IMG/VR virus record: IMGVR_UViG_3300045125_000171
Span: 1 to 29,544 of that record
Source of the DNA: a virus
Reading direction: 5' to 3' (one strand)
DNA: 29,544 nt
Part shown: positions 5,758-25,580 of the stretch, piece after piece
How the letters are laid out: every line of letters begins with the position of its first letter
Numbering within the stretch: position 1 is the stretch's first letter
Position numbers and translations under genes: made by a program
The notes under the pieces: model-generated
What the model was told of the DNA's origin: nothing
Seen by the model: the letters and a program-made list of their open reading frames with translations, nothing else
Databases searched by the model: none

Positions 5758-5786
5758 TTGAAATCGCTGCCGGCCTGACATAATAT
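5758..5786 (+). promoter_or_regulatory. Candidate sigma-70 promoter of the phage late operon
   Basis: TTGAAA at 5758-5763 is separated by exactly 17 bases from TAATAT at 5781-5786. Both hexamers are close to consensus. It points at the scaffold and capsid genes about 150 bp downstream and is followed at once by two hairpins. Confidence 0.6.
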
Positions 5787-5804
5787 CCACTCAACTTAAT
5801 TAAG

Positions 5805-5867
5805 AAAGCGCCTACGAGCCCGATCCGCCGTAGGCGCTTTACTCATTTTCCCGTGGTTACGCCACGG
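5805..5867 (+). promoter_or_regulatory. Structured leader: two perfect hairpins between promoter and first late gene
   Basis: A 12-bp perfect inverted repeat, AAAGCGCCTACG at 5805-5816 and CGTAGGCGCTTT at 5829-5840, is followed by a second hairpin, CCGTGG at 5851-5856 and CCACGG at 5862-5867. The first looks like an intrinsic terminator working in either direction, with a weak T-rich tail (ACTCATTTT). It could end host-side transcription, or form an attenuator within the late leader, since it lies only about 20 bp beyond the candidate promoter. Confidence 0.65.
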
Positions 5868-5881
5868 CTCAGTAACCTCCG

Positions 5882-5919
5882 GAGCCACGCCGAGGCCTAC
5901 TCCCAGAGCCACGCCGAGG
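5882..5919 (+). repeat. Direct repeat GAGCCACGCCGAGG, two copies
   Basis: The 14-mer occurs at 5882-5895 and 5906-5919, 24 bases apart start to start, just upstream of the scaffold gene ribosome binding site. It could be a protein-binding site or part of the leader RNA. A related GCCACGG occurs in the preceding hairpin. Confidence 0.6.
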
Positions 5920-5935
5920 GGGAAGAGGACAATCA

Positions 5936-6712
5936 ATGAAAATCATCCTTGAGTCACTCGATAACGTCGAGGAACAGGATCATCAATTCTTTGATGAGAC
6001 CGAAGACGGAAAATACGCCTTCAATCGCGGACGATTCGAGGAGATGGCCAAAGCCGGCCTTCTCAGGAAGAACAAGGAACTGGTGACGAAGTTGAAGGCC
6101 GCCGAGCCACTGGAGAAGTACAGGGATGTTGACGAACAGACCTGGCAGGCATTCCAGCAGTGGCGAGATGACCGTGGCGATGAACCGGAGGATAAGCTCG
6201 AGGAGCCTCAACCGGTCCAGAGCCAGCAACCGGAGAGACAGTTCGATTACAAGAAGCTGCTCAAACAGGAGATCGGCAAGGTCCAGGAGAGCTACGAGGC
6301 CCGGCTTCGCGAGAAGGCCGAGGAGCTCGGACTGTTGCAGGAGAAGTTTGATCGGTATGTCCTGGATCAGCAGTTGATGGCGCTGGCGCTGGAGGCCGGA
6401 GTCATCCCGGAGAGGCTCGATTCCTTCAAGCGGACGATCGGTGACCGTTTTGCGCTCCGGAACGGGAAGTTGATCTATCTCGAGGATGGAGATGAGTCGG
6501 AGACACCAGCCGACAAAGCCATTGGCGAGATCTTCCGCAAGGATCTGGACTGGTTCTTTGCCGCGCGAGAAGCGGGCGGAGGGAGCGGCCAGCAGAAGGT
6601 GTCACGAGCGATCGGCTCAAAGGAGCTGAACCGATCAAAGATGACGCCTAAGGAGAAGAGCGACTACATCCGGGAGTATGGAAATGACAAGTATCTGAAG
6701 CTTCCGATATGA
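5936..6712 (+). CDS. Phage capsid scaffolding protein (probable)
   Basis: The 258-residue protein is highly charged and helical with a long coiled coil in the middle (QFDYKKLLKQEIGKVQESYE, then EKAEELGLLQEKFDR) and ends MTPKEKSDYIREYGNDKYLK. Acidic N-terminal region, central coiled coil and a basic C-terminal capsid-binding tail are the layout of tailed-phage scaffolds, and its place directly before the major capsid gene supports this. It is an unbroken frame. Start ATG at 5936 follows GGGGAAGAGG about 8 bases upstream. In most phages terminase, portal and protease genes would precede it; none is present here. Confidence 0.7.
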   Translation: MKIILESLDNVEEQDHQFFDETEDGKYAFNRGRFEEMAKAGLLRKNKELVTKLKAAEPLEKYRDVDEQTWQAFQQWRDDRGDEPEDKLEEPQPVQSQQPERQFDYKKLLKQEIGKVQESYEARLREKAEELGLLQEKFDRYVLDQQLMALALEAGVIPERLDSFKRTIGDRFALRNGKLIYLEDGDESETPADKAIGEIFRKDLDWFFAAREAGGGSGQQKVSRAIGSKELNRSKMTPKEKSDYIREYGNDKYLKLPI

Positions 6713-6762
6713 AACAGATTGACCTGACGGTCCGGTCATAAATTGAAAGAGGAGAGAAGCAG

Positions 6763-7748
6763 ATGGCGACTTCCGTGGCAAGTGATTTCAAAGTCTACCA
6801 GCAGCAGTTCTTTGGAGGAATGACGGAGACGCTGCAGCAGGCGGTGGACGTTATGAATGCCTCGAGCAACGGGGCAATCGCAATGACGACGGAGCGGATG
6901 AGGGGGGATTTCTGAGTATGAATCCTTCTTTGAGAGCCTGGCGACGCTGGTGAGTCGACAGGACACGTCATCGACGAGCCCGGCAACGGCGGTGAAGCTG
7001 ACGCAGGACGAGATCGTGCGCGTCAAGCTGCACCGGAAGATCGGTCCGGTTGAGGTAACGCGGAAGGCGTTTCTGCAGATCGGGCAGGATCCGGAGCTGG
7101 CCTCGTTTATTCTCGGTCAGCAGACGGCGCAGGCCGTCGCCGAGAATATGCTGAACAGTGCACTGCTTGCGGCTCGCGTATCGTTGGCCAACACCGCGGC
7201 CGTGATGAATGACGTGACCGGAAGCTCAGTCAAACATACTACACACAAGAATCTGATCAACACATTACGGAAGTTCGGTGATAAACAGGGGAGGATCGTC
7301 GCCTGGGTCCTCCATTCTTCCAACTGGTTTGATCTGAGCGTGGACGGTGTCGAGAACCAGATCGACTCGATTGCCTCCGATATCATCCGCGTGCTGGAGG
7401 TGCCGGGAATGGGACGGCCCTTCATCGTCACCGATTCGCCAAGTCTGATCACGGCCGGATCGCCGGACTCCTACTACGTTCTTGGACTGACCTCGATGGG
7501 GATTCAGGCCGTTCTGACCGAGGATCAGTACATTACGACCGAGGAGGTGACGGGAGGCGAGCAGATCGTCAACCGGATCCAGAGGTGAGTATGCCTTCAA
7601 TCTTGGCGTGAAGGGCTACCGCTGGGATGTGACCAATGGGGGTGCCAATCCGGACGACTCCTCGCTTGGAACCGGTTCCAACTGGGATCGCGCTGCCACC
7701 TCGGACAAGGATCTCGCCGGTGTGGTCCTGAAGTGTCACATTGCGTGA
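6763..7748 (+). CDS. Phage major capsid protein
   Basis: The composite starts MATSVASDFKVYQQQFFGGM, continues NASSNGAIAMTTERMRGDF, ESFFESLATLVSRQD, LTQDEIVRVKLHRKIGPVEV, then VAWVLHSSNWFDL, GMGRPFIVTDSP and ends AFNLGVKGYRWDVTNGGANP, LGTGSNWDRAA. This matches a widespread major-coat-protein family from siphophages with HK97-like fold (gp13-like, PF20036 as I recall it). The order scaffold then coat agrees. Two one-base breaks, near 6912 (GGATTTCTGAGTATG, where dropping one base restores DFEYESFF) and near 7586, are needed. GGAGAG precedes the ATG by 6 bases. About 328 codons, a normal size. Confidence 0.85.
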
Positions 7749-7853
7749 GGACGGTGGCTGTCATTCGACCGGGAAGTGATGAGATCGGATCTCGGTCCGA
7801 CTCCTGAACCCGGCCAGAGTGGAGCCAATGAGTAGCCAGAGGGAGATTAAGCA

Positions 7854-8279
7854 ATGGCAACAAGAGATCGACGTCGTTATGCGGCGGCCGGTGGCAGCAC
7901 GACTGTCGCGGCGACCGGCAATACGGACGAGTATGTGATATCGCCAGTCAGCGGAATCCTCACCGAGGCGCTCCTTTCCGGCACTGACGCTTTGGCGACG
8001 AGCAATACGAACTACGTTACCTTCACGATCACCAATCTCGGTCCATTGGGTACAGGGACGAGGTCGATGCTTGCGGCCGTTGACGGGAATACCACCAAGG
8101 CGACCGGAGGTGCGGCGCTCGTGGCCGATACGCGGCGTGCTTTGACGATCAACAGTACGGCGGCCAATCTGCGAGTCTCGGTCGGTGACCGGATTCGTAT
8201 TCGCGCGGCTGTCACCGGAACGCTTGCCAACACGGTGACCGGAGCGGCGTGGCTGCTTGTCTTTAACAGGGAGCTCTGA
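7854..8279 (+). CDS. Phage head protein, possible capsid decoration protein
   Basis: The 141-residue product (MATRDRRRYAAAGGSTTVAA, TDEYVISPVSGILTEALLSG, then TFTITNLGPLGTGTRSM and GDRIRIRAAVTGTLANT) is rich in Thr, Ala and Gly and looks like a beta-sandwich. I do not recognise a named family with certainty. Position right after the coat protein and the composition suggest a head decoration or stabilisation protein. The frame is intact. The 105 bases between the coat stop and this start hold a weak short reading (VAVIRPGSDEIG, with a frame break) and a Shine-Dalgarno (GAGGGAG). The stop TGA overlaps the next start (TGATG). Confidence 0.5.
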   Translation: MATRDRRRYAAAGGSTTVAATGNTDEYVISPVSGILTEALLSGTDALATSNTNYVTFTITNLGPLGTGTRSMLAAVDGNTTKATGGAALVADTRRALTINSTAANLRVSVGDRIRIRAAVTGTLANTVTGAAWLLVFNREL

Positions 8280-8712
8280 TGCGAGTACTGATCTATGGCG
8301 AGAGGGCGAGGCGGCAATTGAGCGGCGCGATCAGTTGCGCCGTGCAAAGCATCACGCTTCGCTGCGCAATCCGGAGTTCTTCAATCCGGAGCAGTTTGAA
8401 CGAGCGGCCGATCTGGTGATCTCAGATGATGAAACGGTTCTGGAGGCCTACCAGAACCTTGGAATCAACACGCAGATCCTGACCATCCAGACCGAGACTT
8501 CAGCTACCAGATGAAGACTGGGCCGATGAGGAGCCGGGCAGTGATGAAGATCACGAGGAGACTGGTCCAGCCGAGGGGACAGCCGCAGCAATCGGCGGGA
8601 GCCGTCAAGGACTCCCGGTGTGACGGCCGTTGAGACTGGAGTAGCTGCAAGCCAACGGCTTACCGATGACGCTCCTGAGGGTGGGATTCGTCCCCGAAGG
8701 CGTCTCCGGTAG
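8279..8712 (+). CDS. Small acidic phage protein of unknown function, frame-broken
   Basis: I do not recognise this gene. The composite starts MRVLIYGER, continues IERRDQLRRAKHHASLRNPE, FFNPEQFERAADLVISDDET and EAYQNLGINTQIL, then an acidic linker LPDEDWADEEPGSDEDHEE and a basic end RPRRRLR. Three frame breaks (about 8305, 8505 and 8605) are required. It is joined to its neighbours by overlapping stop and start codons on both sides (TGATG before, TAGTG after), which argues that the whole span is one gene. A role in head assembly or the connector is inferred from position only. Confidence 0.5.
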
Positions 8713-9281
8713 TGGCCATCACACTGATTCCGGCACTGGACACGAACGCTGTCCTCGATCCGGCTGGCAACACCTATGTCACGCTCCTCGACGCACACGA
8801 CTATTTTGAGAGCCGGTTGAATGCCGATGACTGGGAGCGCGCACCACAGCCGCGACAGCAGCAGGCATTGCTGACGGCGATGCGGATCCTTGAGACGCTG
8901 CCGTGGATCGGGGCACCGCTGCTCGTCACACAGCCACTGGCCTGGCCACGCGTCGCGACGTGTCCGGCTGAACGAGAGAACCGGAAGCGGATCCAGACCG
9001 GGTACGAGACACCGACCGGGGCGACAAGAGGAATCTATGATCGCCGCGGCCGAGCCTGGACAGTCGCGGCCATTCCACTACCGATCTGCCACGCGCAGTG
9101 CGAGATTGCACTCGCCATGCTCCAGGATCAGTCCCTTAACGAGGGGCAGATGCGAAACATGCTCATTCGCACTTCAAATGCCGAGATCGACTACCGGCTC
9201 AAGGCTGGCAGTGCACCCGTGATGGCGATGGAATACCTGAACGGGTTTCTGCTGAACGGTACGGCAATTCTCCGAGCCTGA
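8712..9281 (+). CDS. Head-tail connector protein, DnaT-like family
   Basis: The 189-residue frame is intact and contains DAHDYFESRLNADDWERAPQ, RQQQALLTAMRILETLPWIG, QPLAWPRV, a variable stretch, then ICHAQCEIALAMLQDQSL. This is the pattern of the phage protein family labelled putative DnaT-like ssDNA-binding protein (PF20557 as I recall it), whose members lie between coat and tail genes and probably act as head-completion or adaptor proteins. The label DnaT-like is historical and does not mean replication. The GTG start at 8712 overlaps the previous stop. Confidence 0.75.
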   Translation: MAITLIPALDTNAVLDPAGNTYVTLLDAHDYFESRLNADDWERAPQPRQQQALLTAMRILETLPWIGAPLLVTQPLAWPRVATCPAERENRKRIQTGYETPTGATRGIYDRRGRAWTVAAIPLPICHAQCEIALAMLQDQSLNEGQMRNMLIRTSNAEIDYRLKAGSAPVMAMEYLNGFLLNGTAILRA

Positions 9282-9286
9282 GACTG

Positions 9287-9637
9287 ATGGATCTGACACG
9301 TGCCATGGAGGGAGCCTACAACCAGCTGCGTCGCGTCACGATGGGGCAGGAGACCACGCTCGCGCTCTTTGATGACAACGGGCAGCTCGTGATCGAGATC
9401 CGGTCCGGCTGGTATCCGGAGACGATCGAGGGGAACGAGACCGGACGCCAGGTCTCACAGGTCCGCGTGCTCCAGCTTGGTTCACCGATCGATCTCGAGC
9501 GCGTCACATTTCTGGAATTTGGCGGTGGACGGTACGAGCAGGAGGGCTTTCCCGATCCACCAACCGGTAATCCACGTGAGTACATCTGGCGGCTGCGGCC
9601 GGTTGGCGAGGTTGAGGAGCGATTATGGTTGACGTGA
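9287..9637 (+). CDS. Phage head-completion region protein of unknown function
   Basis: Intact 116-residue frame: MDLTRAMEGAYNQLRRVTMG, then LALFDDNGQLVIEIRSGWYP, LQLGSPIDLERVTFLEFGG and YIWRLRPVGEVEERLWLT. I do not recognise a named family. The mix of charged strands and its position between the connector and the tail-completion gene suggest a head-tail joining or stopper protein. It overlaps the next gene by 13 bases. Confidence 0.55.
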   Translation: MDLTRAMEGAYNQLRRVTMGQETTLALFDDNGQLVIEIRSGWYPETIEGNETGRQVSQVRVLQLGSPIDLERVTFLEFGGGRYEQEGFPDPPTGNPREYIWRLRPVGEVEERLWLT

Positions 9638-10098
9638 CCATTGAGGGAATCGACGACGTAGTGGCCTCACTGCAGGGAAAGGTGAAACGGCTGCGGAACC
9701 TGCGACCGGTCTGGAGATCGCTCCTGGCCTGGCTCCGTCAGGTGACGATCGATCAGTTCGCGACGGCCGGTGGACGATCACGTGACAAGTGGCAGCCGCT
9801 CTCGCCGGTCTATGGCGCACGGAAGTCACGTGTCTGGCCTGGCAAGCCGATCCTTCGGGCGAGTGATCGGCTCTTTCAATCTCTGACCGGCAGCAATCAG
9901 GACTCGATCGTCGAGATCGAGGCCGGATCATTCACCTGGGGCACGGCGACACCCTACGCGCGTTACCACCAGCGCGGAACCGCACGGATACCGCAGCGAA
10001 AGATCCTTGTTGTCACCAAAGCCGATCGCCGCCAGATCACCGCACTGGTCCGTGCGCATCTCGCCAATCAGGGCCAGGTGAGCGGCTATGGCGTTTGA
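9625..10098 (+). CDS. Phage virion morphogenesis / tail completion protein (gpS-like)
   Basis: The intact 157-residue protein contains VWRSLLAWLRQVTIDQFATA, GGRSRDKWQPLSPVYGARK, LRASDRLFQSLTGS, TWGTATPYARYHQRGTA and IPQRKILV. The series of W.PLs.vY..K, iL..sg.L..S and ya.yhQ.Gt...P.R is the signature of the phage virion morphogenesis family (PF05069, phage P2 gpS) and the HK97 gp10-like connectors. It acts in closing the tail or joining it to the head. It overlaps both neighbours by 11-13 bases. Confidence 0.8.
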   Translation: MVDVTIEGIDDVVASLQGKVKRLRNLRPVWRSLLAWLRQVTIDQFATAGGRSRDKWQPLSPVYGARKSRVWPGKPILRASDRLFQSLTGSNQDSIVEIEAGSFTWGTATPYARYHQRGTARIPQRKILVVTKADRRQITALVRAHLANQGQVSGYGV

Positions 10099-10617
10099 GC
10101 CGTTATTTGAAGACTGGGCCGGTATCCGGCCGCTGCTGAAGACGGCACGCACGATCATTGAGCGTGATATGGAGGCGGCTCTCATCTGGGCCTATGGCGA
10201 GAGCGAGCCGGGACCGGTCTATGCACGAATCCAGTACACGCAGCGCCACTCGCAGGCCTTTCCGCTGCTCGTCCTCCAGGCGGCCTCATCGACGCCGGAA
10301 CCGCTCTCGGGAGGTATTCTCCAGCGCCACGTCCTTGATTGCGAGATCTACCTGACGCGTGCCACGCAGACGGGTGAGGATATCGACACGCTTGCGCTCG
10401 ACCTGATCCGGTATCTGGATGCGACCGTGATGTGCTTCCTCTCGGCGCCAGCCGTCGACTGGACGGTGAGTTTCCGACGGGAGCCGATGCCGGAAAGATC
10501 CGCATCTGGTGCACGAACATCGTCTTCGGGCAGCTGCAGCAGGCTACGGAACGGAGCGGGCAGTATCTGCACTCGGTGGCATTTGAGCTGCAGATTGACC
10601 TGATCGAGAGCGAATGA
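10088..10617 (+). CDS. Tail terminator-like protein (probable)
   Basis: Composite: MAFEPLFEDWAGIRPLLKTA, RTIIERDMEAALIWAYGESE, FPLLVLQAASSTPEPLSG, HVLDCEIYLTRATQTGEDID, LALDLIRYLDATVM, then after a break near 10475 FPTGADAGKIRIWCTNIVFG and HSVAFELQIDLIESE. The alternating strands (measurement-like repeats VLDCEIYL, HSVAFELQIDL) and gene order fit the tail terminator / gpU fold. I do not recognise it at sequence level. The stop overlaps the next start as ATGA at 10614-10617. Confidence 0.55.
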
Positions 10618-11139
10618 TGCTGACGAGTGAGCAGATCAGACAGCGCCAGCGCTGGGTACTGACACATCCCTGTCGACGTGTTGAGGATTGCGGAATGCTC
10701 GGTTACCGGATCGATCTGCCGGCTGGTGGAGAGACGATCGCGACGATTCTGACGATCGACCTCTTCAGCTCACCCGTGGCCTGGCATTCGACAACGGCAC
10801 TGATCGGTCAGGATGGCGTCACTCTGCCCGTGACGGTTTGGCAGGCAAATGATCGCACCGGCACTGCTCCGGATCGCCGAGCAGATGATTGAGGGCGTCG
10901 GTCAGTCGATCTGTCGACACGAGGAGGACCAGCTCTCGATTGGCATTGCCAGACTTGTGACGACGGCCGAGGCCGAGATCATCTTTCGTGCCATCGGGCT
11001 TTGTCCTCCGAGGCCACGCGCGATTGGTGAGATCGCCATCTATGACTTTGCCGATCGCCGGACAGCGGCCGAACAGAACACGTTTCTTCCACAGGAGAGA
11101 AGGATTGTCTATGACAACTTACCGCAGATATCCAACTGA
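10614..11139 (+). CDS. Phage protein of unknown function, tail-proximal
   Basis: Composite: MMLTSEQIRQRQRWVLTHPC, DCGMLGYRIDLPAGGET, TILTIDLFSSPVAWHSTTAL, then after a break near 10860 LRIAEQMIEGVGQSICRHEE, LSIGIARLVTTAEAEI and GEIAIYDFADRRTAAEQN. I do not recognise the family. The start overlaps the preceding stop (ATGA) and the end overlaps the next gene by 29 bases, which may shrink if one more indel is present near the end. Confidence 0.5.
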
Positions 11140-11485
11140 TGGCGTGGTGGATGTCAACAATCTGCCGGAGCAGCCGTGGACGCAGGATCATCTTGGCGGA
11201 GAGCTCTTCAGCGCCATGGCGACGGCCTGTGGTGCCGGAGTCTCTGGATCGGCCGTAAGTCCAAGCCTGGACGCGCGAACCTGGGCCATCTGCCGAGCGC
11301 ACCGGATCATTGCCGATCAGGCTCTTTCGAGCGCTGAGGCCGAGATCGTAATGGCCGAGGCCAGAGAGCTGCAGGCTCAAATCAATGAAATGCTTGCGGA
11401 ACCAACTGGAACACCACGCGTAAGCTCTGCGCCGGAGCTGACCGGCTCGACGACCACGAGGAAGACCGGTCGTCGGTTTCTCTGA
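11111..11485 (+). CDS. Phage protein of unknown function
   Basis: Intact frame of 124 residues from ATG at 11111: MTTYRRYPTDGVVDVNNLPE, LGGELFSAMATACGAG, TWAICRAHRIIADQALSSAE, EIVMAEARELQAQINEMLAE and a basic end TTRKTGRRFL. The Shine-Dalgarno GGAGAGAAGG ends 5 bases upstream and decides this start over a more upstream in-frame start at 10988. The helical middle could form a coiled coil. No family recognised. Confidence 0.6.
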   Translation: MTTYRRYPTDGVVDVNNLPEQPWTQDHLGGELFSAMATACGAGVSGSAVSPSLDARTWAICRAHRIIADQALSSAEAEIVMAEARELQAQINEMLAEPTGTPRVSSAPELTGSTTTRKTGRRFL

Positions 11486-11507
11486 TCCGGGCAGGGGAAG
11501 GGGTCAT

Positions 11508-11837
11508 ATGCCAAAGTCAAAAGTACCACCCGTGGCAGTCCGGAAGACGGCGGCCAAGGCGCTGAAATGGCGCCGTGAACACAATCGCGGCGGAACGGAG
11601 ATAGGTGTTGCACGCGCGCGTGATCTCTCAAACGGAAAGGGGATACCGATCTCGACGATCCGGCGCATGAACAGCTACTTTGCGCGCCACGCCGTCGATC
11701 TCCAGGCCAAAGGCGCGAGACAAGGCCAGGCCGGCTATCCATCGGCCGGTCGCATTGCCCGGGACTTATGGGGAGGCGACGCTGGTCGCCGATGGGCAGC
11801 CGCTATGCTCAAACAAGAGAAACAACGTAAGTCCTGA
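11508..11837 (+). CDS. Conserved phage protein with the RRM.SYF.RH domain
   Basis: The intact 109-residue protein contains RKTAAKALKWRREHNRGGTE, VGVARARDLSNGKGIPISTI-like text (here IGVARARDLSNGKGI), RRMNSYFARHAVDLQAKG, AGYPSAGRIARDLWGGDAG. This block is common in tailed phages next to head genes, either alone or fused to protease or portal proteins; its biochemical role is not known to me. The strongly basic, helical nature suggests DNA or core binding. The start follows GGGGAAGGGG and the coat-tail gene order is kept. Confidence 0.7.
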   Translation: MPKSKVPPVAVRKTAAKALKWRREHNRGGTEIGVARARDLSNGKGIPISTIRRMNSYFARHAVDLQAKGARQGQAGYPSAGRIARDLWGGDAGRRWAAAMLKQEKQRKS

Positions 11838-11853
11838 AAGGAGATGTGCGCCT

Positions 11854-11898
11854 ATGGTATCGCGGTGGCTGAAACCAAGACCAAAACCACGTCCGTGA
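11854..11898 (+). CDS. Micro-ORF, 14-residue basic peptide
   Basis: MVSRWLKPRPKPRP preceded by AAAGGAG 9 bases upstream of ATG. The Shine-Dalgarno sequence is one of the best in the window. The peptide is half Arg, Lys and Pro. It may be a real micro-peptide, a leader peptide, or an accidental frame. Confidence 0.35.
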   Translation: MVSRWLKPRPKPRP

Positions 11899-11911
11899 GG
11901 GCGTTTGAGCA

Positions 11912-12092
11912 ATGAAGAATCTCTCTGGTGCAACAGCACCTGGCGTCAACTGCCGAGGATTACTCGGGAGCGATGAAGTCTCATCAGCGAAGGAGCAGAC
12001 CACAGAACTGCCGCGAAAGGTGGCTACAAGGGAAAGAACCCCTTGCCGTGAAAAGCAACCAGATGAAGGGCACTGCCAAGGCCGGTGGCTGA
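11912..12092 (+). CDS. Small lysine/glycine-rich phage protein, frame-broken
   Basis: From ATG at 11912 the reading is MKNLSGATAPGVNCRGLLG; frames then alternate to give KGGYKGKNPLP and VKSNQMKGTAKAGG with a stop at 12090-12092. An alternative start is the ATG at 11973 (MKSHQRRSRPQNCRERW), which keeps one frame to the same stop. Small Lys/Gly-rich peptides are common in phage head regions, where they may be packaged with DNA. Function is unknown. Confidence 0.35.
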
Positions 12093-12108
12093 GCAACGGA
12101 CATCCATG

Positions 12109-12294
12109 CCGCGATCGACCGGACAGCGGATGTCAAAGAAGAAGATGATCGCCAGCGGAAGGAGAACCATGCCGGGATATTCAATGAAGCGACCAGCCGG
12201 GAAAAAGAAGAATACGCTTTGTCAGCCAGCTCGATGGACGGCCAAAAAGCAGAAGCCGCCGAAGCAGTACAAGATGAAGGGCAAGCGCAAATAG
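12109..12294 (+). CDS. Small strongly basic phage protein
   Basis: One open frame encodes MPRSTGQRMSKKKMIASGRR, then MPGYSMKRPAGKKKNTLCQP and KQKPPKQYKMKGKRK. An internal ATG at 12169 has the better Shine-Dalgarno sequence (GGAAGGAGAACC) and gives a 41-residue protein with more than a third Lys and Arg. Possibly a DNA-condensing head protein. Another frame over the same bases encodes an acidic helical peptide (DVKEEDDRQRKENHAGIF onwards) but has no start codon. Confidence 0.45.
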   Translation, partial: PRSTGQRMSKKKMIASGRRTMPGYSMKRPAGKKKNTLCQPARWTAKKQKPPKQYKMKGKRK

Positions 12295-12353
12295 ACGCAT
12301 GAACTGCCCAACAAAAGCGCATAAATAGCGCACAGATCAAAGGGAGGTAAGCA

Positions 12354-12962
12354 ATGCCTCAGGAACAGCTAAAGGATATGCGTCGACATACACCGTGAGC
12401 GGACCGCTCGACATCTGGTTCAAGGCGGCCGTGCCAGGCAGCCAACGGAACACCGACGCTCCACACGGACGGCACGCCGGAGTCGGTCGGCCAATCCGAA
12501 CTGCGTCCACGCCGGAATGCTCAAGGGCGGTGGCGGATTCAACGTCAATGCCGAGCTGCAGGAGCGGACGTCGGACAACCTGGCGGCCCCCTATGAGGTG
12601 AAGCTGCTCTCGTCGTCGATGGCGCTGACCGGTGAGATGCTCGCAGTTCAATGCGGCACTGCTGCAGATCATCACGCCGGGAGCGTCGACACCGGCCACG
12701 GCGCCAACGGGAAAGACCGGTATCACGCTCGGCTCGATCTCGAACGTGGCGTCGACCTGCGTCCTCGGCATCTGGGAGCAGAAGACGACCGGCAAGTACT
12801 TCACCGTCGTCCTCTATGACGCCTACCAGGCTTCCGGTCTCGAGCTCGTCGCTCAACCGCAGCGAGGACTCGGCGGCCAACGTCGAGTTCCGCTCAAAAG
12901 CGGTCTCCTCGCGAGCGACGGCCGATCAGGTTGGCGCGATCTGGATCGACAACCTGACCTGA
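12354..12962 (+). CDS. Phage major tail tube protein
   Basis: The composite starts MASGTAKGYASTYTVSG (needs one base change of frame at the second codon), continues LDIWFKAAVPGS, GMLKGGGGFNVNAELQERTS, LSSSMALTGEML, FNAALLQIITPGA, GKTGITLGSISNVAST, then YFTVVLYDAYQASGLEL, SEDSAANVEFRSKAVSSRAT and ends VGAIWIDNLT. The YFTVVLYDAYQ and final vttR.vad..A.w.. elements are typical of siphophage tail tube proteins. AGGGAGG ends 7 bases before ATG at 12354. About four frame breaks. The two tail assembly chaperone genes and the tape measure follow, in standard order. Confidence 0.7.
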
Positions 12963-12970
12963 AGGTGGAT

Positions 12971-13039
12971 CCTGACCTGCTTACGGTCGCCGCGCGGTGA
13001 CCGGACACGACGTTTTTTCCTGGTACGTCGCAGGTCAGG
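12971..13039 (+). ncRNA. Intergenic three-way-junction RNA structure between tail tube and chaperone genes
   Basis: Outer stem CCTGACCTGC (12971-12980) pairs perfectly with GCAGGTCAGG (13030-13039). Inside it two hairpins can form: CGGTCGCC (12984-12991) with GGTGACCG (12996-13003), with one internal mismatch, and CGACGT (13008-13013) with ACGTCG (13025-13030), whose loop holds TTTTTTCC. The outermost G of the last hairpin is shared with the outer stem, so one pair gives way. The arrangement lies entirely in the 108-base gap. It may be a partial terminator that lowers expression below the abundant tail tube, or an mRNA-stabilising or regulatory element. Confidence 0.55.
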
Positions 13040-13070
13040 TTCCTTACCGGGACGGCATCAGGAGGCCGAG

Positions 13071-13566
13071 ATGAAGAATTCACGTGGTGTGCAGATTTGC
13101 GGCGCAGTTCAAAAGACGGATCGCCGCCGTTGCGCCTCCAACGACGATCGTCCACCTGCCGATTCCCTCGATCTCACCGGACTTCGTCTTTGAGTTCGAG
13201 GCCCGACGCATCTCGATCGAGGCCTGCTCTATTCCGGCGCACTGCCGGAGAAGCTCGCGCTGACACTGATCGGGAATCAGACGACGACGGCACCAGCCGA
13301 GCTGAGCGGAGCCGAACAGTTGCAGATCCTCGAGTTCCAGCGACGGATCGCCTGCGAGGTCTGCGTCTCACCACGACTGGTCTTCCGTGACGTGCATGGC
13401 GGATGACGAAATCGATCTGCGCAATGTTCCATACGCGGGCAGCATTATCGTCGCGCTCTTCCAGTACGCGATGAACCTGTCGCCTGACGTGCCAGTCTCG
13501 ACACAGAGCGGGGAGACGACGGTCGATGCCGTCGAGCCGATTTCGTGCGCAGTCCGCACTTTCTGA
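13071..13566 (+). CDS. Tail assembly chaperone, first part (gpG-like)
   Basis: Composite: start MKN after CAGGAGG, then TTIVHLPIPSISPDFVFEFE, ARRISIEAC, LYSGALPEKLALTLIGNQTT, LQILEFQRRIACEVCVSPRL, VFRDVH, DEIDLRNVPYAGSIIVALFQ. Position between tail tube and tape measure, and the helical C-terminal half, identify the chaperone that coats the tape measure protein. Frames change near 13125, 13225 and 13400. The frame ends in VEPISCAVRTF and stop at 13564-13566, while the second chaperone part starts in another frame upstream of that stop. Confidence 0.6.
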
Positions 13567-13781
13567 CGCTGGTGACGATGGCACACCGGTTCGGTCGACT
13601 GCCAAGTGAGCTGTTCCGGCTGAGGGATGAGACGATGGCCTGTGCCTTTGATGTTGCGGCGACGCTGGTCGTCCACCGGACGGAGATGGCGCAGGATGAG
13701 AATCGACAGGCATCACTGATTGGCGCTCTGGCCGGCTCGCCACCACCGCAGGTCGAGTGGGAGTCGGTTGAGGAGTTCTGA
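13545..13781 (+). CDS. Tail assembly chaperone, second part (gpT-like extension)
   Basis: The frame reads RSPHFLTLVTMAHRFGRLPS, ELFRLRDETMACAFDVAAT, then a helical end to VEWESVEEF. RFGRLPSEL followed by a short helix and aFDvA is typical of the downstream chaperone ORF in siphophages. It has no Shine-Dalgarno sequence and overlaps the first part by 22 bases in a different frame, as expected if it is made only as a frameshifted fusion (gpGT-like). It is followed after 20 bases by the tape measure gene. Confidence 0.6.
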   Translation: MRSPHFLTLVTMAHRFGRLPSELFRLRDETMACAFDVAATLVVHRTEMAQDENRQASLIGALAGSPPPQVEWESVEEF

Positions 13782-13801
13782 TAGGGTGAGCAGGAAGCCT
13801 T

Positions 13802-16800
13802 ATGGCAGCTGATGACCTGACAACAACGCTGCGCTTTACGGCCGATACCGGCAACGTGGAAGCGTCGACTGAAACGGATCGTCAGCAGCCTGCAGACGGT
13901 TGTCCGGATGGCCGCGGATGCTGGCGCGAGCATCGATTCAGCTGGCCGGAGCACAGGCAGTCAGATGCATCAAGCGCTGCATCAGGCGGCGACAAGCACC
14001 GTGCTGAACGACTCGCCCGGAGTCAGACCGCAGCGGCCGATGCTGACACTGCGTCAGGCGCAGGCTCTGGCACGTCTTCAGCAGATTCAGGGCGACTCAA
14101 CGAAGCCGCCATCCGGACTCTCCAGAATGCGCTGCAGGGCTTCACCGGATCGCAGCTTCAGGCCATTCGTGCACAGACTCAACTGGCAGCGCTGACCACC
14201 AACTACAGCAACTCACCGTTTATCTCGGCCATTCGGCGAGCAGACCAGATGCAATTACTCAGCTTTCGCACACGGCATTTCATCGGCAGCCTTGGCGATC
14301 CGCAGATCTCATTTGCCGTCAGCACGCTTGATTTCTGAGTCTGCAGAGCATCGCCGAGCAATGCCGGATCTTCAGCCGGTCCAATCGGCACACTGACTGT
14401 GGCCACGAAGCTCCTCGGCACCGGACTGGCAGTGACCGCAGCCGGTGCGCTCGCCGTAGTTCCAGTCCTGCAGCAGACTCGGATCGTCGGCCACCGGGTC
14501 GCAGCGGCAGCTCGAGCAGGCACGGATCGGTGATTGCCGAGCATCGTCGCTTCGGTCGCGCACGCTCAACCGCGACGGCGTCAGGCTCGAGGGCGTCGAC
14601 GCACTAAACGCCGCACTGCCGCTGGCCTCCGAGCAGATTGAGAAGATCCGGATCGACGCGCTCCAAACGGCACTGACCTTTGAGCAGATCTCGCAGGGCT
14701 TCCTTCAGGCCATTGGACCAGGTCTCTCCGCCGGACTCAATCTTGATCAGATCCGCAAGATCGTCGTCGATCTCTCGCAGCTCGTCGGGCCACTGACCGG
14801 CAGCGTCGCCACAGCGCTCGGACAAGAGCTCTCCGAGCCATCATCTCTGGCGACATCAATCAGGACACGCAGACGGCGAAGGCGCTCGGTATCACCCGGA
14901 GCAGATTCTGGCTGCGCGTGAGCAGAACCGGCTGGCCGATTTTCTGAACGAGAAGCTGAAGGTGGCTGCCGTCACCGGAAGGCTGGTCGGCCAGACCTTT
15001 GCTGCGGCAACGAGCAATCTTCGTGAGGCCGGGACGATTCTTGCCACACAGGTCACGGGAGGTCTCTTCGAGAGCCTTCGGCAGTCGTTCAACAGCGTCC
15101 TGCCGCGTCTCTTCACGATCGCTGGTGAGGCCTCGCTCCAGCCGGCCTTGAGAGGACTGGCTGTCACACTGCGCGAGATCTTTGATCGCGTCGGGACGGT
15201 GGTCAGTAAGGCCATCGACGGGATCCTGACGAGCCTTGAGAACCTCTCGCTCTTTCGCTCGGAACCGCGAGGAGCTCTCACGCCTTGCCGAGCTGGTCGG
15301 CAATCTCTTTGCCACGCTTGCTTCAGTCCTCGGAACGGTCCTCGGCTCACTCATCAAGCTCTCGGCCGAGCTCCTGGTTCTCGCCACTCGGTTTGCACCG
15401 GTGACGGTCGGTCTCGGGACACTTGCGGCGCTGATTGCCGCCTTCGGGCCAGGAGCTACCGCTGCGGCAACCGTCACCCAGGCGCTGACCACCGCCTTAA
15501 CCTCGCTCACGATCTGTCACTTGCCGCGACGAGCAGCCGCACTCATCAGCACCTCGACCTTCTCTTGACGACGCCATGCCGGCTGGGCCGCTCCTCGCCG
15601 CCTCGGTTGCTGCTGCTGGTCTGGCCTATGCCGCCTTCAACGACCGGCAGCAGGAGGTGATCGACCAGGCCGATCGTCTCCAGATCGATCAGATCACCGC
15701 TCAGTTTGCTCAGCTGAAGGCCGTCCAGAAGCCAGCTGGCCGAGCTCGACACCTTCACCAGCTCGCAGGCCGATCTGAATCGTGAGACCGAGCGGTACCG
15801 CGCCATCCTCTCGACACTTCCACCAGCGCAGCAGGTCGTCATCGGCGTCACTCACGACGCAGACAGAACGCGCGTCGAGGCACTGCGCGAGAGCACTCCG
15901 TGGATCGGCCGAGGAGCAGCTTGCCCAGGCTCGTGAACTGCAGACCGATCCTCCTGCAGAGGGAATCGCTGCCCGACAGGAGGAGATCGATCGGTGCACA
16001 ACGGCAGCAGATCTCGGCACCGTGAGGAGGAGATCCGGAGACCCGCGAACTGGCCAAGGTCAATGGCAACGGTCTCACGCAGAGCTCGTCGCTACGGGTG
16101 GAGAGGTGATCTGTGTCGAGCGTGATCTCGGAGCTGAACAGCTCCAAGGCGGCACAGGCCAACCTGAATGCTCGCTCAACTCTTGCCGATCTGACCAGGG
16201 CGCAGGAGTCGAATCTTTCCTCGCTGCGCAAACTGCTGCCTGGCTCTTGGGGATACCGAGCAGCAGCTTCTCACCGCCCAGGCCAGTCGGACCTCTGACG
16301 GCAGAGCAGTTGCCGCACTCAAAAAGGCGCTCGGATCTCGGTCGCCGTCGCGGGCTCCACAGACGGCCGGTGGCGTCGAGCTGGTCTCCGGAAAGGCTGC
16401 TGACCTGGCGAGGAAGGCCGAGGCGGCCAAAGAGGCGCTCAACGAGCTCTTCTCAACCGGTGACACGGCCAGGCTCCGGCGGCAGATCACCGGACGTTCG
16501 ACGAGATCACGGCCTCCGCTCTCCAGTCCGGAAAGGGCATCCGCGGCGCACAGAGTGCGCTCAGGACCGCGCTCAGTGATACGACCGATCCACTGGCGCA
16601 GCAGATCCGGACGCTCAAGGAGGCCGCAAGCGATCTCCAAGCCTGCAGTCCGTGGTCAGTCCGGAGAAGAAGAGTGGAGGCTCCAGCGCGCTGGCACATC
16701 TGAAGGCGCAACGCACCGCTGAGGCCGAATTCGATCTGCTCAAACTTCGTCAGCAGCGGACAGAGCGAACCGAGCAGCTGGTCACGGCCAATCTGGAAGC

Positions 16801-18357
16801 GGAGCTGCGTGATCGACTGATCTCACGGCGCAAGCTTACGCGTGACGTTATCGCTTCGGAGAGCGCATTCTCGAGATCAGAAAACAGATCTTTGCCGAGG
16901 AGCGGCGAGCAGCCAGGACAGAGCTGGAAGAATCCGGCACAGGAGCGGGCCGCCATCGAGGCGATCAATGAGCTGCGAGCTCCAGGCCGTGCAGGACTTC
17001 AATCTCCGCGTGCAGCGACTGCGAGATGAAGAGCGACAGGCCGACGCCAGGCAGAGGCCGAGCATCAGCAGCGGCTCCTCGATATTCGTGAGCGGTACGA
17101 GCGACAGACGGAGAGTCTGATCCGGTGATGCCGAGTCGGGGCCGGGTGCAGCGCAGGCGTCAGCGCAGCAGCTGACCGAGCTTGAGCGTGAGCGATAGGA
17201 GGAGCGAGGGCAATCCTTCGGGCCGATCTGACATGACGCCAGCCGATGCGACGGCACGACAGAAGTCCTCGGGACCAGCTCGCGCGCCCTCGGCTGCTGA
17301 ACGCGCCTTCATTTGAGCTCGAGGCCTCGGCCAGAATCCGTCAGGCACAGGCACAGGGAGACGGGCCGAGCCTGGGCAACTGATCGCGCGGCGGATTGAT
17401 GCACTGATCGATCTGCAGAAGGCGACAGGCTGCGCCGAGCCGCCGAGGTGCGCTCGGTCTCCAGCGTGGCACACTCAGCGCGAGAACCGCCGCTTTGGCC
17501 GAGACGACCAGCGTCGACAGCTGCCTTGATCTTGAGCTGACCGAGCGGGTCCGGCAGATCGGGCGCAGCAGCAGGCTGCAGGCACGCGAGGCGGCACGGG
17601 CTTGGACGCCACGCCGGTATCCTGCTCCAGATCGAGCAGACCAAAAATGACAGATTCGGCCGGAGGCGCGCGCGGCGGCCGAACAGCAGCAGCTCATCGA
17701 CCAGCAGGCCGCTCTCTGAGCGAGAACCAGACGGCAACGCTCCAGTCACTCTTCTCCGAGCGGTCCAGCTTCTCGCACAGAACGTCGGGCTCTTTCAGGC
17801 CTCGATCACCGGCGTGATGGAGTCGATCGAGGCGTCACCGATCCAGCCACTGGACGGCATCCTGACGCAGGCCATCAATGGCTTTGCCGAATCACTCGGC
17901 TCGCTGTCGAGCAGTACGTTCTGATGGGAAGACCGGACCGGCCGTCATCCGCAAGCTCCTTGCTGCACAGCTGGCCGCCAGTGCCAAAGAGGCAGCCGTC
18001 AATGCGATCAAACAGACGGCGCTCGGTTTCGCGCACTCCTTCACCAATCCGAGCTCGAGGCCGGCTCACACTTCGCCTCGGCCGCACAGTGGGCACTGCT
18101 GGCCGGGACGGCCGGAGCCACGTCGGACGCCATCGCCCCGGCGGCTCCTCGGGCGGCGAGCACCAGTAATCGCACCACCAGCCAGAACGCGGCCGATGGT
18201 CGAGATGCGCTCATCAATCAGGGTGGCGCCGCCGCGCCAGCCACAGGTTGTCGTCTATCCGTGCGAGTACCAGCCAGAATCATTGTCGAGCAGGTCGTCG
18301 ACAACTACCGCACCAATGGAGCGCTGCGTGAAACGCTCCGACGTGATCTTTTTGAGG
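13802..18357 (+). CDS. Tail tape measure protein, heavily frame-broken
   Basis: Starts MAADDLTTTLRFTADTGNVE after a Shine-Dalgarno-like GAGCAGGAAG. Over about 4.5 kb (roughly 1,500 codons) it reads as helical, Ala/Gln/Arg-rich sequence with hydrophobic segments: GTGLAVTAAGALAVVPVL near 14420, LLVLATRFAPVTVGLGTLAA near 15375 and LLAASVAAAGLAYAAF near 15595. Between 14600 and 15230 there is a long readable stretch (ALPLASEQIEKIRIDALQ, QILAAREQNRLADFLNEKLK, GQTFAAATSNLREAG). Coiled coils dominate 15650-17150. The end contains LLAAQLAASAKEAAVNAIKQ and RIIVEQVVDNYRTNGALRET. Length, helicity, hydrophobic patches and position after the chaperones identify the tape measure, which sets tail length. 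Dozens of frame breaks are present, so the exact length is uncertain. Confidence 0.75.
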
Positions 18358-18367
18358 GAGCAGAGCC

Positions 18368-18786
18368 ATGGCAAATCAGCTCTCCATCCGCTGGCCAAAA
18401 CGGCTTTGCTCACCCAATTCACCGGACCATCGATCTGGACTAATATCGATTGATCCGGGCTTCAACTCGTCACGGCCGGCTACACCTACTGTGCCACGCA
18501 CCAGTACATCACCTCGGTCTCATCGACTCACCGCGTGGCGACCGTCGCGCTCACCAGCAAGACGGTCGTCAGCGGGGTTCCCGGCTGCCGCCGATGCCAC
18601 CTTCACCAGCATCGCCCCGGCTCAGAAGTGACGCAGATCATCATCTGGCAGTGGAGCGGGAGCGAGGGGAGGCCCGCTCACGCATACTTCTGGCAATCAT
18701 CGACACGGCTTCGGGGCTGCCCAAGGTTCCCAACGGCGGCAGCATTATCGTCTCCTGGAATGCGGCAGGCATCTTTTGCGCTCTAA
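18368..18786 (+). CDS. Conserved phage tail-region protein
   Basis: Composite: MANQLSIRWPK, then TAGYTYCATHQYITSVSSTH, RVATVALTSKTVVSGV, DAADATFTSIAP, VTQIIIWQWSGS, LLAIIDTASGLPKVPNGGSI, IIVSWNAAGIFAL. The pattern Y...hq..ss....Rv....LtsktV..G..daaD.tFt...g..vtqliiy......pLiayidt..GLPvtPNGG.i.v.W...GIf.L is a widespread phage structural family often annotated hypothetical. The exact role is not known to me; it follows the tape measure and is probably a tail or fibre component. Three frame breaks. ATG at 18368 is preceded by GAGGGAG. Confidence 0.6.
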
Positions 18787-20531
18787 CCGTGGATAGAGTC
18801 ACCACATCGACCACCGGCGTGCCCTTTGATCCGGCCTGGTTCCGAGCGCTCACCGGTGAGTCCTCTGGCTGGCCAATCGATCTCTGCTGCGGTGGTGGTC
18901 CGCTGGGTCCCTCCGGATCCAGGACACGATCCGGCACCCAATAGAGAGATTCGGGCCAAGCGCCATCGTCTATGAGGATGAGCGCCAGCGGCGGGCCGAT
19001 CTTCCGGACGCACATCGACAAGTTCTCACAAACGGCTCTACGAGTGCTTTCCGGCCCGCTGGTGGTTGGCTGCTTCACTACTGGGATTGGCTGATTGCCG
19101 ACCGCTGGCTCCCGCAATGGAGCTAAAGCGGCTTCGGCTGACGCTGCAACGCTCTATCCATCACCTGGCAGCCGCAGCCGATCTCGACGGCTATCGACAG
19201 GGGTGTCGGAAGTCCGTGGTCAGCGGTCCCGGAACGTGGTGCCGAATCTGGTCTCGACACATAGACCCGGTCAGCCGCCTTGTCCTTGAATCGAGCTGGT
19301 ATACGGATGTCTCTGAAGGCGATGCTGCTGACCAGATGCTGGCTCCGTTTTAGCTTTACCAGCATCAATAACATTCTGGTCAATGCGACCATTCTGTGAC
19401 GCGGGAGGATTGAGCTTCGCCGATTTGCCCCTGCACCACCGATGATCCGAGCCGTACGGTCAGACGTCGCCTGGTTCTATTCCCTCAACTATTCCGCAGG
19501 GCGAGACGCAGCTCGACCCGGCCTACTGGTCAGCCTTTGGTGCTACGCAGGTTGCCACCAACGAGAACTTCAGCCTTTGGAACCAGCCGCCAACCAGCCA
19601 TGCCGGACGACGACTGACCCAGGCCGGACGTCAGTCCGTCAACGCGCGACCGGCATCACTAGCGGTTGCTCCATCCGCCGTAGGAGTGCCGATGTTCAAC
19701 TGGGTCAGACCCGGCCTCGGTCAGCCAGATGCAATGGCGGGCCGATCAGAGCGGAACGACCAATGATCCGCGTCACGGTCCTTACCTACGCGCCAGGCAG
19801 ATCGACCATCACCGCATCCTTCATTGCCGCGGCGGCTGCGGTCTCATGCACCCGCTCTCGGTAGAGCCGGCACCCGGTACTGTCCTTCACCGCCATTGAT
19901 CCACGGCCACGTCAGCCAGTGAACGTGCCAGCGAGTATCCCAGCCACCGGCGACCTCGCCACCTGTGATCGGCGTGGATCTCACGCGGTAGGTCTACGCC
20001 CGAGGCGACGGGAGGGTGACGGCCATCTACCCGTTTTTGATCGAGAATCGGTCCGAAAGCAGCGACTTGGTCTCTCACCGCGGTGCGGTCACACGGTCCA
20101 CAAGCCCGCTGATTTCGCCGTCATCTCGCGATCTTCAGTCCGACCGCCGTCCGGACCTGGACTCACCGTTGCGCCGTTTCCGGACGGGGGTCAGCGTCGC
20201 GGGACCAACGATTGCCCTCCTCGTCGAGCAGCCGCCTCGCCTTTGGGAGCCAGCCGCTTTGAGTACGAAGACGGCGGGCTTGACGTCAATCTGCAGCCAA
20301 ACGGTCAGCGCCGGCGGACGCCTGAGTACGCCCAGGTCTTTTTCGGCGGCAGGATCTCGATACGCTCCGCGCAATACTGGAATCTTCTGCCCGCAGGCAT
20401 CGCCGCAATTGGGGCTGTGATCGCCGGACCAGCTCTGACCTGGGAGCGGGTCAAGTACGAGTCCTTTCGGGTCGGCGCACACGTCAGGTACCGGTCTGTT
20501 CCGGCTAGACCATTGTCCCCGTGAGGGAATA
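18787..20531 (+). other. Tail-region coding DNA, genes not resolved
   Basis: GC-rich with coding character but no frame stays open long. One readable piece at about 19479-19772 gives IPSTIPQGETQLDPAYWSAF, GATQVATNENFSLWNQPPTS and a further 50 residues. Another at 20270-20515 gives FEYEDGGLDVNLQPNGQ and YWNLLPAGIAAIGAV. Neither is recognised. By position they should belong to tail-tip or fibre proteins. Exact gene borders cannot be set from this sequence. Confidence 0.4.
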
Positions 20532-21085
20532 ATGGCGATTATCGATGTTAGCCTGGACCAACCTGGTCAATACGGCAGTCGACTTCTACGGTGATCTGGA
20601 GAAGATCTCGGGCACCAGAATGACTGCAGGCAAACAAACGTTGCAGAGCAGCTTTCGCTGGTGATGCTGGCGCCTCGGTCGGCAGCAGACGATCACGGCT
20701 GCCGATGGTGACTGGGAGCTTCGCTGCACGCTTGGGCCAACCTCAAACTCCGGGCGGACCTTATTGGCCTGACCAGCAACCCCTTTCACTGACTTCGCCA
20801 CCCTGGGCCTCCTCGCCTCTACGTCAGTACGGTAGCCGTGAGCGGTCCGCCAGCGCATCCAGCCAATACGCCCAGATCTTTGAGGGGCGGCACCAGGCCT
20901 GATCGCCTTTGACGGTGTCTGGAATGAAGGGCGCCCTTGCGCTTCGTCTGCCGTAGTGGTCACCTGAGCTACTACCTCGGCAGTCAGCATCTTCTTCACC
21001 TCCGGCCAGGCACTGGTCTATCCGCTGCGCGCCATCACCTCGATCGCCTGTCTCAACAAGACGGTCCTTGACGCACAGATCCTGA
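20532..21085 (+). CDS. Tail protein with concanavalin-like beta-sandwich domain, frame-broken
   Basis: The composite reads MAIIDV, WTNLVNTAVD, KISGT, SSFAGDAGASVGS, ADGDWELRCTLGPT, RTLIGLTSNPFTDFATLGLL, IFEGGT, LIAFDGVWNEG, RFV, SGHLSYYLGSQ, YPLRAITSIACLNKTVLDAQ. The scheme W.n...v...g..l.Ktsg...dwnaga.S.q.i...dg.vef...................v.y..ng is the lectin/ConA-like domain seen in phage tail fibres and related surface proteins, where it may bind carbohydrate. At least eight frame breaks are required. Start ATG at 20532 is preceded by GAGGGAAT. The end may continue into the next gene. Confidence 0.5.
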
Positions 21086-21572
21086 CCGCTCGTGGCCAGA
21101 CCTCGCGGACCGGCGGTGCTTCAACTCCTGGACGATCTCCGACTCCCGCTGCGTACTGCCCTGGCATCGAGTGGCGGACCACGCACCTCTTTCGGGAGGC
21201 CGAAGCCGACTGGAACGAGAGATCCGGTTCAGAGTTCCGGACTGGTGGCAGCCTGCGCGAGAAGTCTCGCAGCTCGGCTCGGGTCCGGGTCTCCGAGATC
21301 CGCCGCGGATGGGCCGAGTGAGGCCGAGGCGCTTGTTCTCGATACTCACTGGCAGAGCACCTCCGGCGGGCTGCCCTTCACGCTCGTTCATCCACAGACC
21401 GGTGAGGTGATCACCGGTGTTCGCCACGATTGGCTATGCGCGGATGCAGCCATCAGCAGCGCGTCTGGTCTTCAGGAGCGCCTTCGGCTCGACCTCGTCA
21501 AACACACGAACTGTGGATGTGCAAAACTGCGGATCTGCGCTCCTTGCCCTCCTTGAGTCCTCGTCGGTGTGA
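21086..21572 (+). CDS. Phage minor tail protein with PFTLVHPQTGE motif, frame-broken
   Basis: Readable pieces are WNERSGSEFRTGGSL near 21210, SEAEALVLDTHWQSTSG, GLPFTLVHPQTGEVITGVR and, after a break near 21425, FATIGYARMQPSAARLVFRS. The combination eAeaL..f.....g..PFtlthP.TGe...vRFa recurs in phage minor tail proteins (lambda gpM-like or distal-tail proteins). The start cannot be fixed. The order relative to the tape measure is as expected for a distal tail component. Confidence 0.45.
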
Positions 21573-21960
21573 TCTGGCGCCGGTCGATCTCTATGAGTTC
21601 TATCACCCGGCTGAGACGCGGCTTGAGCCAGGGCCCATGCCGTCCGGCGCCAGCGCGCAGCACCATCTTCTGGCGCTGGCTGGGAACACGAGCGCCAGGC
21701 CTCTCAGTCGTGGTGATGTCAGCCGCTACATCGATGGCCGCTTCAATCACGTCAGCCAGGCCTTGACCAGCAATATCGACCGCTCGGTCTCAACCATGGC
21801 TCTCGACGACCGAGTCTCGGAGGGCTACCGGGTTCTAACTCGCCTCCCCGTCAGCCGCAGCATCGATAATGACTCGGTGGTCCTCTTCGTCGGTCGCCGC
21901 GGCTTCGCTCTATGATGCCGATAACAGACCGTGACGCTCAACGTGCGGCAGGATCTTATG
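21573..21960 (+). CDS. Phage tail protein, DUF2163/BR0599-like N-terminal region, frame-broken
   Basis: Pieces read in order are DLAPVDLYEFYHPAETRLEP, HHLLALAGNTSARPLSRGDV, SAATSMAASITS and LFVGRR. This resembles the start of the DUF2163/BR0599 family of phage tail proteins, with the scheme LYEf.hp..tr..ts.d....g..Y.p.al.R....sgdvs.at..v.v, which lies between the distal tail protein and the hub in many siphophages and gene-transfer agents. Evidence is pattern similarity over short pieces only. Confidence 0.4.
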
Positions 21961-24637: not shown

Positions 24638-24837
24638 GTGGATAAGAGGTTGAAAAACAACGGGTTGGTAGAACGAGATGGAATGAACTGTATGATCTGG
24701 AGTTGTGATCGGCCAGGTCAACTTACTCGAAAAAAAATATTTTCTAAAATATGGCCTGATTTTGGTCTGTATTACGTTTAGTTGATTAGGTGAGGCAGTT
24801 ACATTTTGTTTAATAAAACTAAGTTCTCCTTGCTGCA
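24638..24837 (+). other. AT-rich spacer with a perfect AT palindrome
   Basis: Composition switches sharply from GC-rich to AT-rich at about 24640. No gene is seen. A run of A is followed by the palindrome ATATTTT-CT-AAAATAT (24737-24752), which might act as a weak terminator or a protein-binding site at the end of the late operon. Confidence 0.4.
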
Positions 24838-25005
24838 ATGCCCCGCCGAGACGACAATTCACGCCAAGTCATTAAGAGACACCTTCTTGGCTTGGTAGTC
24901 TATGGATTGATAACGAACTGTCAACCGGTTTTGGGATGCCTTATAGACAAAATGAAAGCTATCCCTTACCTGAATTTGTCTAATCGCGTGTCAAACAGGA
25001 CATGA
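24838..25005 (+). CDS. Small ORF of unknown function, 55 residues
   Basis: Open frame starting MPRRDDNSRQVIKRHLLGLV and ending LNLSNRVSNRT. Its stop TGA overlaps the start of the next gene as ATGA (25002-25005), a common sign of coupling. A competing frame over the second half reads IDNELSTGFGMPYRQNESYP and stops at 24982, so the true protein may switch frames. No Shine-Dalgarno sequence is evident. No family recognised. Confidence 0.3.
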   Translation: MPRRDDNSRQVIKRHLLGLVVYGLITNCQPVLGCLIDKMKAIPYLNLSNRVSNRT

Positions 25006-25568: not shown

Positions 25569-25580
25569 TAAGAGGTAGTT

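Follow-up and report, generated by a model that had tools for sequence, protein, structure and literature searches.

The stretch of DNA analysed here (the window) is the virus record IMGVR_UViG_3300045125_000171, positions 1–29,544 (29,544 bases), and the element in question is a branched RNA structure between its tail tube gene and its tail assembly chaperone gene. The late genes of the window are encoded on the plus strand in the order of tail tube, gap with the RNA, two overlapping chaperone open reading frames (ORFs) and tape measure, an order that is found intact in L088, a locus from an acidobacterial genome. The gap is 108 nt long (12963–13070) and extends from the TGA of the tail tube gene to the ATG of the chaperone gene (13071). 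The names of the two genes rest on gene order: the tail tube proteins of the relatives match phrog_2175, which is labelled ‘protein with Ig domain', the chaperones are without any PHROG match, and the predicted structure of the tail tube protein was uninformative (predicted local distance difference test, 38.9). The late genes of the window are disrupted by numerous insertions and deletions (indels), which leave short open frames and a jumping coding phase; their counterparts in the relatives are intact. Frameshifts are abundant across most of 5900–24500 (capsid, tail tube, chaperone and others), a pattern as from an indel-prone long read. The window is thus rich in indels, yet the stem sequences of the element agree with those of the intact relatives.

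The gap harbours a three-way junction, in which a closing stem (P1, 10 bp) carries two hairpins, P2 and P3 (Table 1). An earlier reading made from the sequence only (the sequence-only reading) had described a perfect 10-bp stem with two hairpins inside, all of which are present; its description of three nested stems does not hold, as the two hairpins stand side by side within one closing stem. Across a single T-T mismatch, P1 can be extended to 12967/13043 (14 nt, 93%). The fold of the gap (−52.4 kcal mol−1) was equalled by 1 of 200 shuffled sequences (z −3.49) and, in a second run, by none of 1,000 (z −3.97), and a perfect helix of at least 10 bp arose in 1 of 300 shuffles; the fold energy is therefore outside the shuffled range and chance formation is unlikely, as that reading had argued. 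When the whole record was scanned in 1,473 segments of 90 nt (plus strand, 40 shuffles each), the segment starting at 12961 ranked fourth (z −4.75). Since the segments above it include coding stretches and a hairpin pair 5′ of the scaffold gene, fold stability alone proves little. The final tail tube codons (12951–12961) duplicate the 5′ arm of P1 and could compete for 13031–13041; this pairing was seen in the window and L088 and, being absent in L087, is not a general feature.

Table 1. Features at the tail tube–chaperone junction; positions refer to the window unless a locus is named.
Feature	Position	Strand	Remarks
Major tail (tube) protein gene, indel-broken	12354–12962	+	Stop TGA 12960–12962; from reading frames and intact homologues
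Intact tail tube homologues	L088 2492–3097; L087 6001–6603; L085 5429–6022		
Modelled RNA element: P1 and its flanks, P2, P3	12967–13043	+	Covariance models R1 92.5 and R2 79 bits; the training sequences include the window
P1, 5′ arm	12971–12980	+	Extends to 12967–12969 beyond the T-T mismatch
P1/P2 junction, UUA	12981–12983	+	U invariant; A aligned in 5 of 7 members
Hairpin P2, 8 bp, loop GCGC	12984–13003	+	Arms 12984–12991/12996–13003; four basal pairs retained in L087
P2/P3 junction, GACAC	13004–13008	+	ACA in all members, preceded by G in six and by U in L088
Hairpin P3, 5 bp, U-rich loop with invariant CCUG	13009–13029	+	Arms 13009–13013/13025–13029
Proposed pseudoknot, loop strand, UCCUGGUA	13018–13025	+	Last base doubles as the end of P3
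P1, 3′ arm	13030–13039	+	Extends to 13041–13043
Proposed pseudoknot, 3′ strand, UACCGGGA	13045–13052	+	
Chaperone Shine-Dalgarno site, AGGAGG	13060–13065	+	Could pair with the P3 loop instead
Tail assembly chaperone gene, first of two overlapping ORFs, indel-broken	13071–13609	+	End set from L088
Intact chaperone homologues	L088 3204–3740; L087 from 6716		

Eight tail tube loci were compared: the window, L083 (MW202444), L085, L087, L088, L093, L097 and L098. Among them, L085, L087 and L088 were found with the tail tube protein and L093, L097 and L098 by profile searches in acidobacterial genomes, while searches of phage and plasmid collections at both DNA and protein level, with tube and chaperone queries, returned MW202444 only. 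The chaperone as a single sequence or a two-sequence profile recovered no relatives, and a three-sequence profile recovered two contigs, both already known. A further search with the tail tube added no contig to those above. The gap contains a stem of 10 bp enclosing 49 nt in the window, of 10 bp enclosing 48 nt in L088 and of 11 bp enclosing 49 nt in L087. That of L085 (6023–6178; a 57% relative) adopts a different branched fold (z −3.61), whose 9-bp branch-closing stem was equalled or exceeded in 16 of 300 shuffles; it was excluded as a member, as neither covariance model (see below) matches it. An inner UCCUAUG of the L085 gap matches CAUAGGA at the Shine-Dalgarno (SD) site. In the distant tail tube relatives L093 and L097 the gap forms plain single hairpins (9 and 13 bp), and those of L098 and L083 (26 and 5 nt) are unstructured.

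The three related structures covary. Between the window and L088, all 25 comparable pairs are kept (the 26th is gapped in L088), with one two-sided change (G-C to A-U) and one change from G-U to A-U, and partners slid along the alignment pair in 29–41% of cells. Furthermore, when the window, L088 and L087 were trimmed to the element ends and aligned by sequence, which was nearly gap-free, two-sided changes were found in 8 of 22 pairs; none of 500 shuffles reached eight, and slid partners gave zero or one. RNAalifold returned for these three sequences the identical structure plus one extra pair. Compensatory changes in relatives, the check that had been set beforehand, were thus found, and covarying secondary structure is one of the marks by which a structured cis-regulatory leader was to be recognized.

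Homologues outside phage tails were recovered by covariance searches. Model R1, built from the window, L088 and L087, was run on 162 genomes of the acidobacterial class of L088's genome; 17 of these gave matches (E≤0.1), of which those in G001, G405 and G505 were accepted, and in two overlapping genome sets (6 of 396 and 25 of 317 with matches) only those in G001. The seven accepted members are (i) the window, L088 and L087, from phages; (ii) L120 and L121, contigs of G405; and (iii) L122 and L123, contigs of G505, both genomes belonging to the same class. Under R1, L120 and L121 scored 42.1 and 41.6 bits, and L122 and L123 scored 25.5 and 22.9 bits. As chance matches in GC-rich stretches reach 30.5 bits (R1) and 29.5 bits (R2, a second model), the G505 pair falls within the chance range and required another test. 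A third model, R3, was trained without L122 and L123 and searched over 756,551 bases that included the known chance matches; it ranked the two first, at 35.9 and 33.5 bits (25.3 bits for the best other match). The structure line of R3 was partly wrong (one P1 pair and P3), thus this hold-out is mainly a test of sequence. Acceptance of L122 and L123 rests on the hold-out, on their location ahead of a start codon and on the identity of L122 with L087 at the element (83% across 41 nt).

The rejected matches differ in setting from the accepted ones. Of the 23 that were examined, 22 are contained entirely in ORFs 100 aa or longer, and L113 (the same as L125) is intergenic but scores weakly and has no ORF start nearby. 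Rejected matches beyond these 23 were judged on score alone. Three rejected matches (L127, L130 and L135) do contain GGACA and UCCUG. Six accepted members went through this check as well: four are outside ORFs of at least 100 aa and two (L120 and L087) are overlapped by an opposite-strand ORF only. An exact-pattern search of viral contigs with the P1 arms found at least 80 stretches; in those loci that were examined, no tail tube was encoded at E≤1, and a chaperone match was found in L083 and weakly in L075 (E 0.04) and in no others. Many of these stretches share another palindrome family, roughly 44 nt long (CTCTGACCTGC...GCAGGTCAGAG), built around an inner inverted repeat and occurring one to three times per stretch (L010, L029, L033, L048, L049, L076 and others), which does not look related to the element of the window.

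Across the alignment of all seven members, 68 of the 70 P1 cells are paired, among which three pairs are G-U and A-C does not occur; G-U without A-C points to an RNA of the sense strand. The unpaired residues that are invariant across the members are the U after P1, the ACA of the second junction and the CCUG in the P3 loop, and the first junction is shorter in L122 and L123 (UA). These data show a three-way-junction RNA, about 75 nt long and homologous at seven loci before different genes, whose stems covary and in which some unpaired residues are fixed.

All seven members have an SD-like site and a start codon 27–36 nt downstream in the same orientation (for L123, the distance of 29 nt is to an ATG inside the listed ORF), so that similar placement before the starts of more than one gene, another mark of a leader, is found in 7 of 7. 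In the window, L088 and L087 the element precedes the tail chaperone gene, and in L120–L123 it precedes unrelated genes, with no tail gene seen in these four contigs. L120 and L121 are 89.7% identical over 203 nt, including about 110 nt 5′ of the element, and L122 and L123 are 87.5% identical over 104 nt beginning at the element; both alignments end before the start codon. L120 and L121 share additional shorter stretches elsewhere. The downstream proteins within the two pairs showed no significant similarity (best E 0.22). Because homology stops before the start codon and the proteins are unrelated, it is the leader, not the gene, that is conserved; judged from these comparisons, the element is a portable 5′ leader.

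The four contigs in which no tail gene was seen look like integrating or satellite-like elements, as suggested by their gene content: an integrase gene is found on the L120 contig, a primase gene on the L121 contig, and a D5-type primase together with an excisionase-like gene on the L122 contig, and in L123 the element is directly 3′ of an integrase gene. The first downstream genes encode proteins of 418, 285, 487 and 236 aa, for which no NCBIfam match was found, nor any Pfam match for the three that were searched; a weak PHROG match was found for the 487-aa protein only. Promoter scans of L120 and L121 gave nothing at the consensus threshold. In both, a TATAAT stands 17 nt 5′ of the element, which suggests that the transcript may begin shortly before it.

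Pairing of the P3 loop with a segment 5–10 nt after P1 is possible in all seven members. The core of this putative pseudoknot comprises nine perfect pairs in L120 and L121 (with one U-A/A-U swap between the two), eight pairs (one of them G-U) in the window and L088, and six pairs in L087, L122 and L123 (one G-U in L123). The P3 loop can also pair with the SD, which suggests a possible switch. The pseudoknot between the P3 loop and the 3′ flank is only moderately supported by these sequences.

Rfam 15, with its riboswitch classes, gave no matches at the gathering cut-off across the whole window, and at E up to 5 none at the element in L081, L087, L088, L108, L109, L110 and L121 (L123 was left out of this search). 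Among the open-licence PubMed Central (PMC) papers listed in literature searches, judged by titles and abstract openings, none describes the element. A shape precedent exists in the glnA and Downstream-peptide RNAs, 5′ leaders with a three-way junction in which a hairpin loop pairs with the 3′ flank of P1. In PMC2864571, the glnA (RF01739) and Downstream-peptide (RF01704) motifs are said to resemble each other, the latter lying in potential 5′ untranslated regions and glnA RNAs presumably regulating genes. They differ from the present element, however: PMC2864571 lists them for marine DNA and cyanobacteria, upstream of nitrogen genes or short ORFs, and the element of the window has no match to either family in Rfam. 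The STAXI motif, from the same source, is likewise an RNA near integrase and other mobile-element genes, but consists of tandem pseudoknots, whereas a single three-way junction without an Rfam match is found here. A stem in a phage tail operon occupies the corresponding place in PMC4351075; it is a single 12-bp stem with a T-run, called a terminator, and the present element is branched, with conserved unpaired residues and, in the window, no T-run.

We consider the element to be a cis-acting structured 5′-leader RNA that probably controls translation initiation of the next gene, a reading to which a probability of about 0.58 is assigned and in which the control is the inferred part. A regulatory RNA, one of the possibilities raised by the sequence-only reading, is thus the best account of a conserved structure before the start codons of different genes. 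Under such a leader, the CCUG of the P3 loop would pair with the segment 3′ of P1, giving a compact pseudoknotted structure in which the SD is accessible; alternatively, it would pair with the SD and hide it. The choice between the two pairings would depend on a ligand, a protein or a passing ribosome. In this phage, the output of chaperone and tape measure could thereby be set apart from that of the abundant tail tube protein. Setting the ratio of tube to chaperone, which had also been proposed, is therefore possible in the phages; it is not the general function, because the RNA precedes unrelated genes in four other contigs. It is conceivable, though improbable, that the element is a portable RNA switch common to acidobacterial phages and integrating elements (perhaps satellites), with both controlled by a single signal acting in trans (for instance a phage protein, or a metabolite that depends on infection), as it precedes the tail chaperone as well as unrelated key genes.

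Several observations weigh against a leader of this kind or against parts of its mechanism. The branched RNA is present in only 3 of the 8 tail tube loci and is thus not a fixed part of this tail operon, and the whole-gap fold of L087 is weaker (z −2.34 and −2.37). The shuffle control for the window and L088 was uninformative with two sequences (253 of 500), and further pair types among the window, L088 and L087 were not above shuffles (316 of 500). In several members, distal P2 pairs (with A-C) and some P3 pairs are broken, and the seven sequences represent roughly four lineages. For the pseudoknot, free helix placement in the tail gave an unusual result in L120 and L121 only (9 and 4 of 5,000 shuffles), with P values of 0.09–0.38 in the other five of the seven members; in the window, the P3 loop under free placement pairs best with the SD and not with 13045–13052. 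A test anchored on CCUG and position favoured the pairing, with P values of 0.0003–0.08 per member (combined over four lineages, 3e-5), but was devised post hoc, after the pairing had been seen. In a swap control, the U-rich loop of the window paired equally well with the tails of other members. Lastly, the downstream genes point to no ligand or partner.

The strongest rival, though an unlikely one, is a transcription attenuator or weak terminator at which some polymerases would stop after the tail tube gene, lowering the output of chaperone and tape measure. It draws on the plain 9- and 13-bp hairpins in the corresponding gap of L093 and L097, on a UUUU 3 nt after P1 in L087, and on SPP1, whose late gene clusters are reportedly bounded by potential stem-loop terminators (PMC6316719). 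Yet no site in 12500–13500 of the window combines a G+C-rich hairpin with an immediate U-run, nothing terminator-like was found around the L120 and L121 elements either, and just after P1 there is no U-run in the window and none of at least 4 nt in any member other than L087. Moreover, a terminator needs no fixed junction or loop residues, and the element precedes another gene in four contigs. Both a plain terminator and a device that serves only tube and chaperone fit poorly.

An mRNA processing or stability element is somewhat less probable still. Here, a cut by RNase III or the protection of an end would give tube and chaperone mRNAs different lifetimes, and a long stem does separate a highly used from a rarely used structural gene, with plain hairpins at the corresponding place in L093 and L097. 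However, this would not account for the fixed ACA and CCUG residues, for the tight spacing ahead of the start codon or for the placement as a leader on the other contigs, and the RNA processing site suggested by the sequence-only reading found no direct support. A DNA-level site moving with integrative elements (for example a recombination, replication or packaging signal that folds as single-stranded DNA) is the least probable: the integrase genes in L120 and L123 (adjoining the element in the latter) and the excisionase-like gene in L122 would suit it, but the seven members share their orientation and a similar distance to an SD-preceded start codon, and the G-U pairs without A-C in P1 point to a sense-strand RNA.

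Other structures and features were seen away from the junction. Genes for the scaffold, the major capsid protein, the head-tail adaptor and tail completion lie at 5936–10095 of the window. Ahead of the scaffold gene, 5804–5870 contains a strong hairpin (GAAAGCGCC...GGCGCTTT) and a second one, with the lowest z in the record scan, and the fold over 5781–5900 has a z of −3.73; other, weaker hairpins precede the gene corresponding to scaffold in L084 (z −1.10). In L102, which is on the contig of L085, 8521–8681 forms a branched structure whose long closing stem is followed by TTTTT and is terminator-like. Furthermore, across about 1.5 kb of the window (24600–26100), the G+C content drops from about 60% to about 35–40%.

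In siphophages, the imbalance between abundant tail tube protein and scarce chaperone and tape measure is generally attributed to frameshifting and terminators, to which a structured leader would add another route. The element described here is a candidate RNA family, without a match in Rfam 15, that a phage group carries in its late tail operon. If one signal is common to its carriers, the tail operon and the other elements should both respond to it; because the module precedes unrelated genes of other elements, such a trigger is testable.
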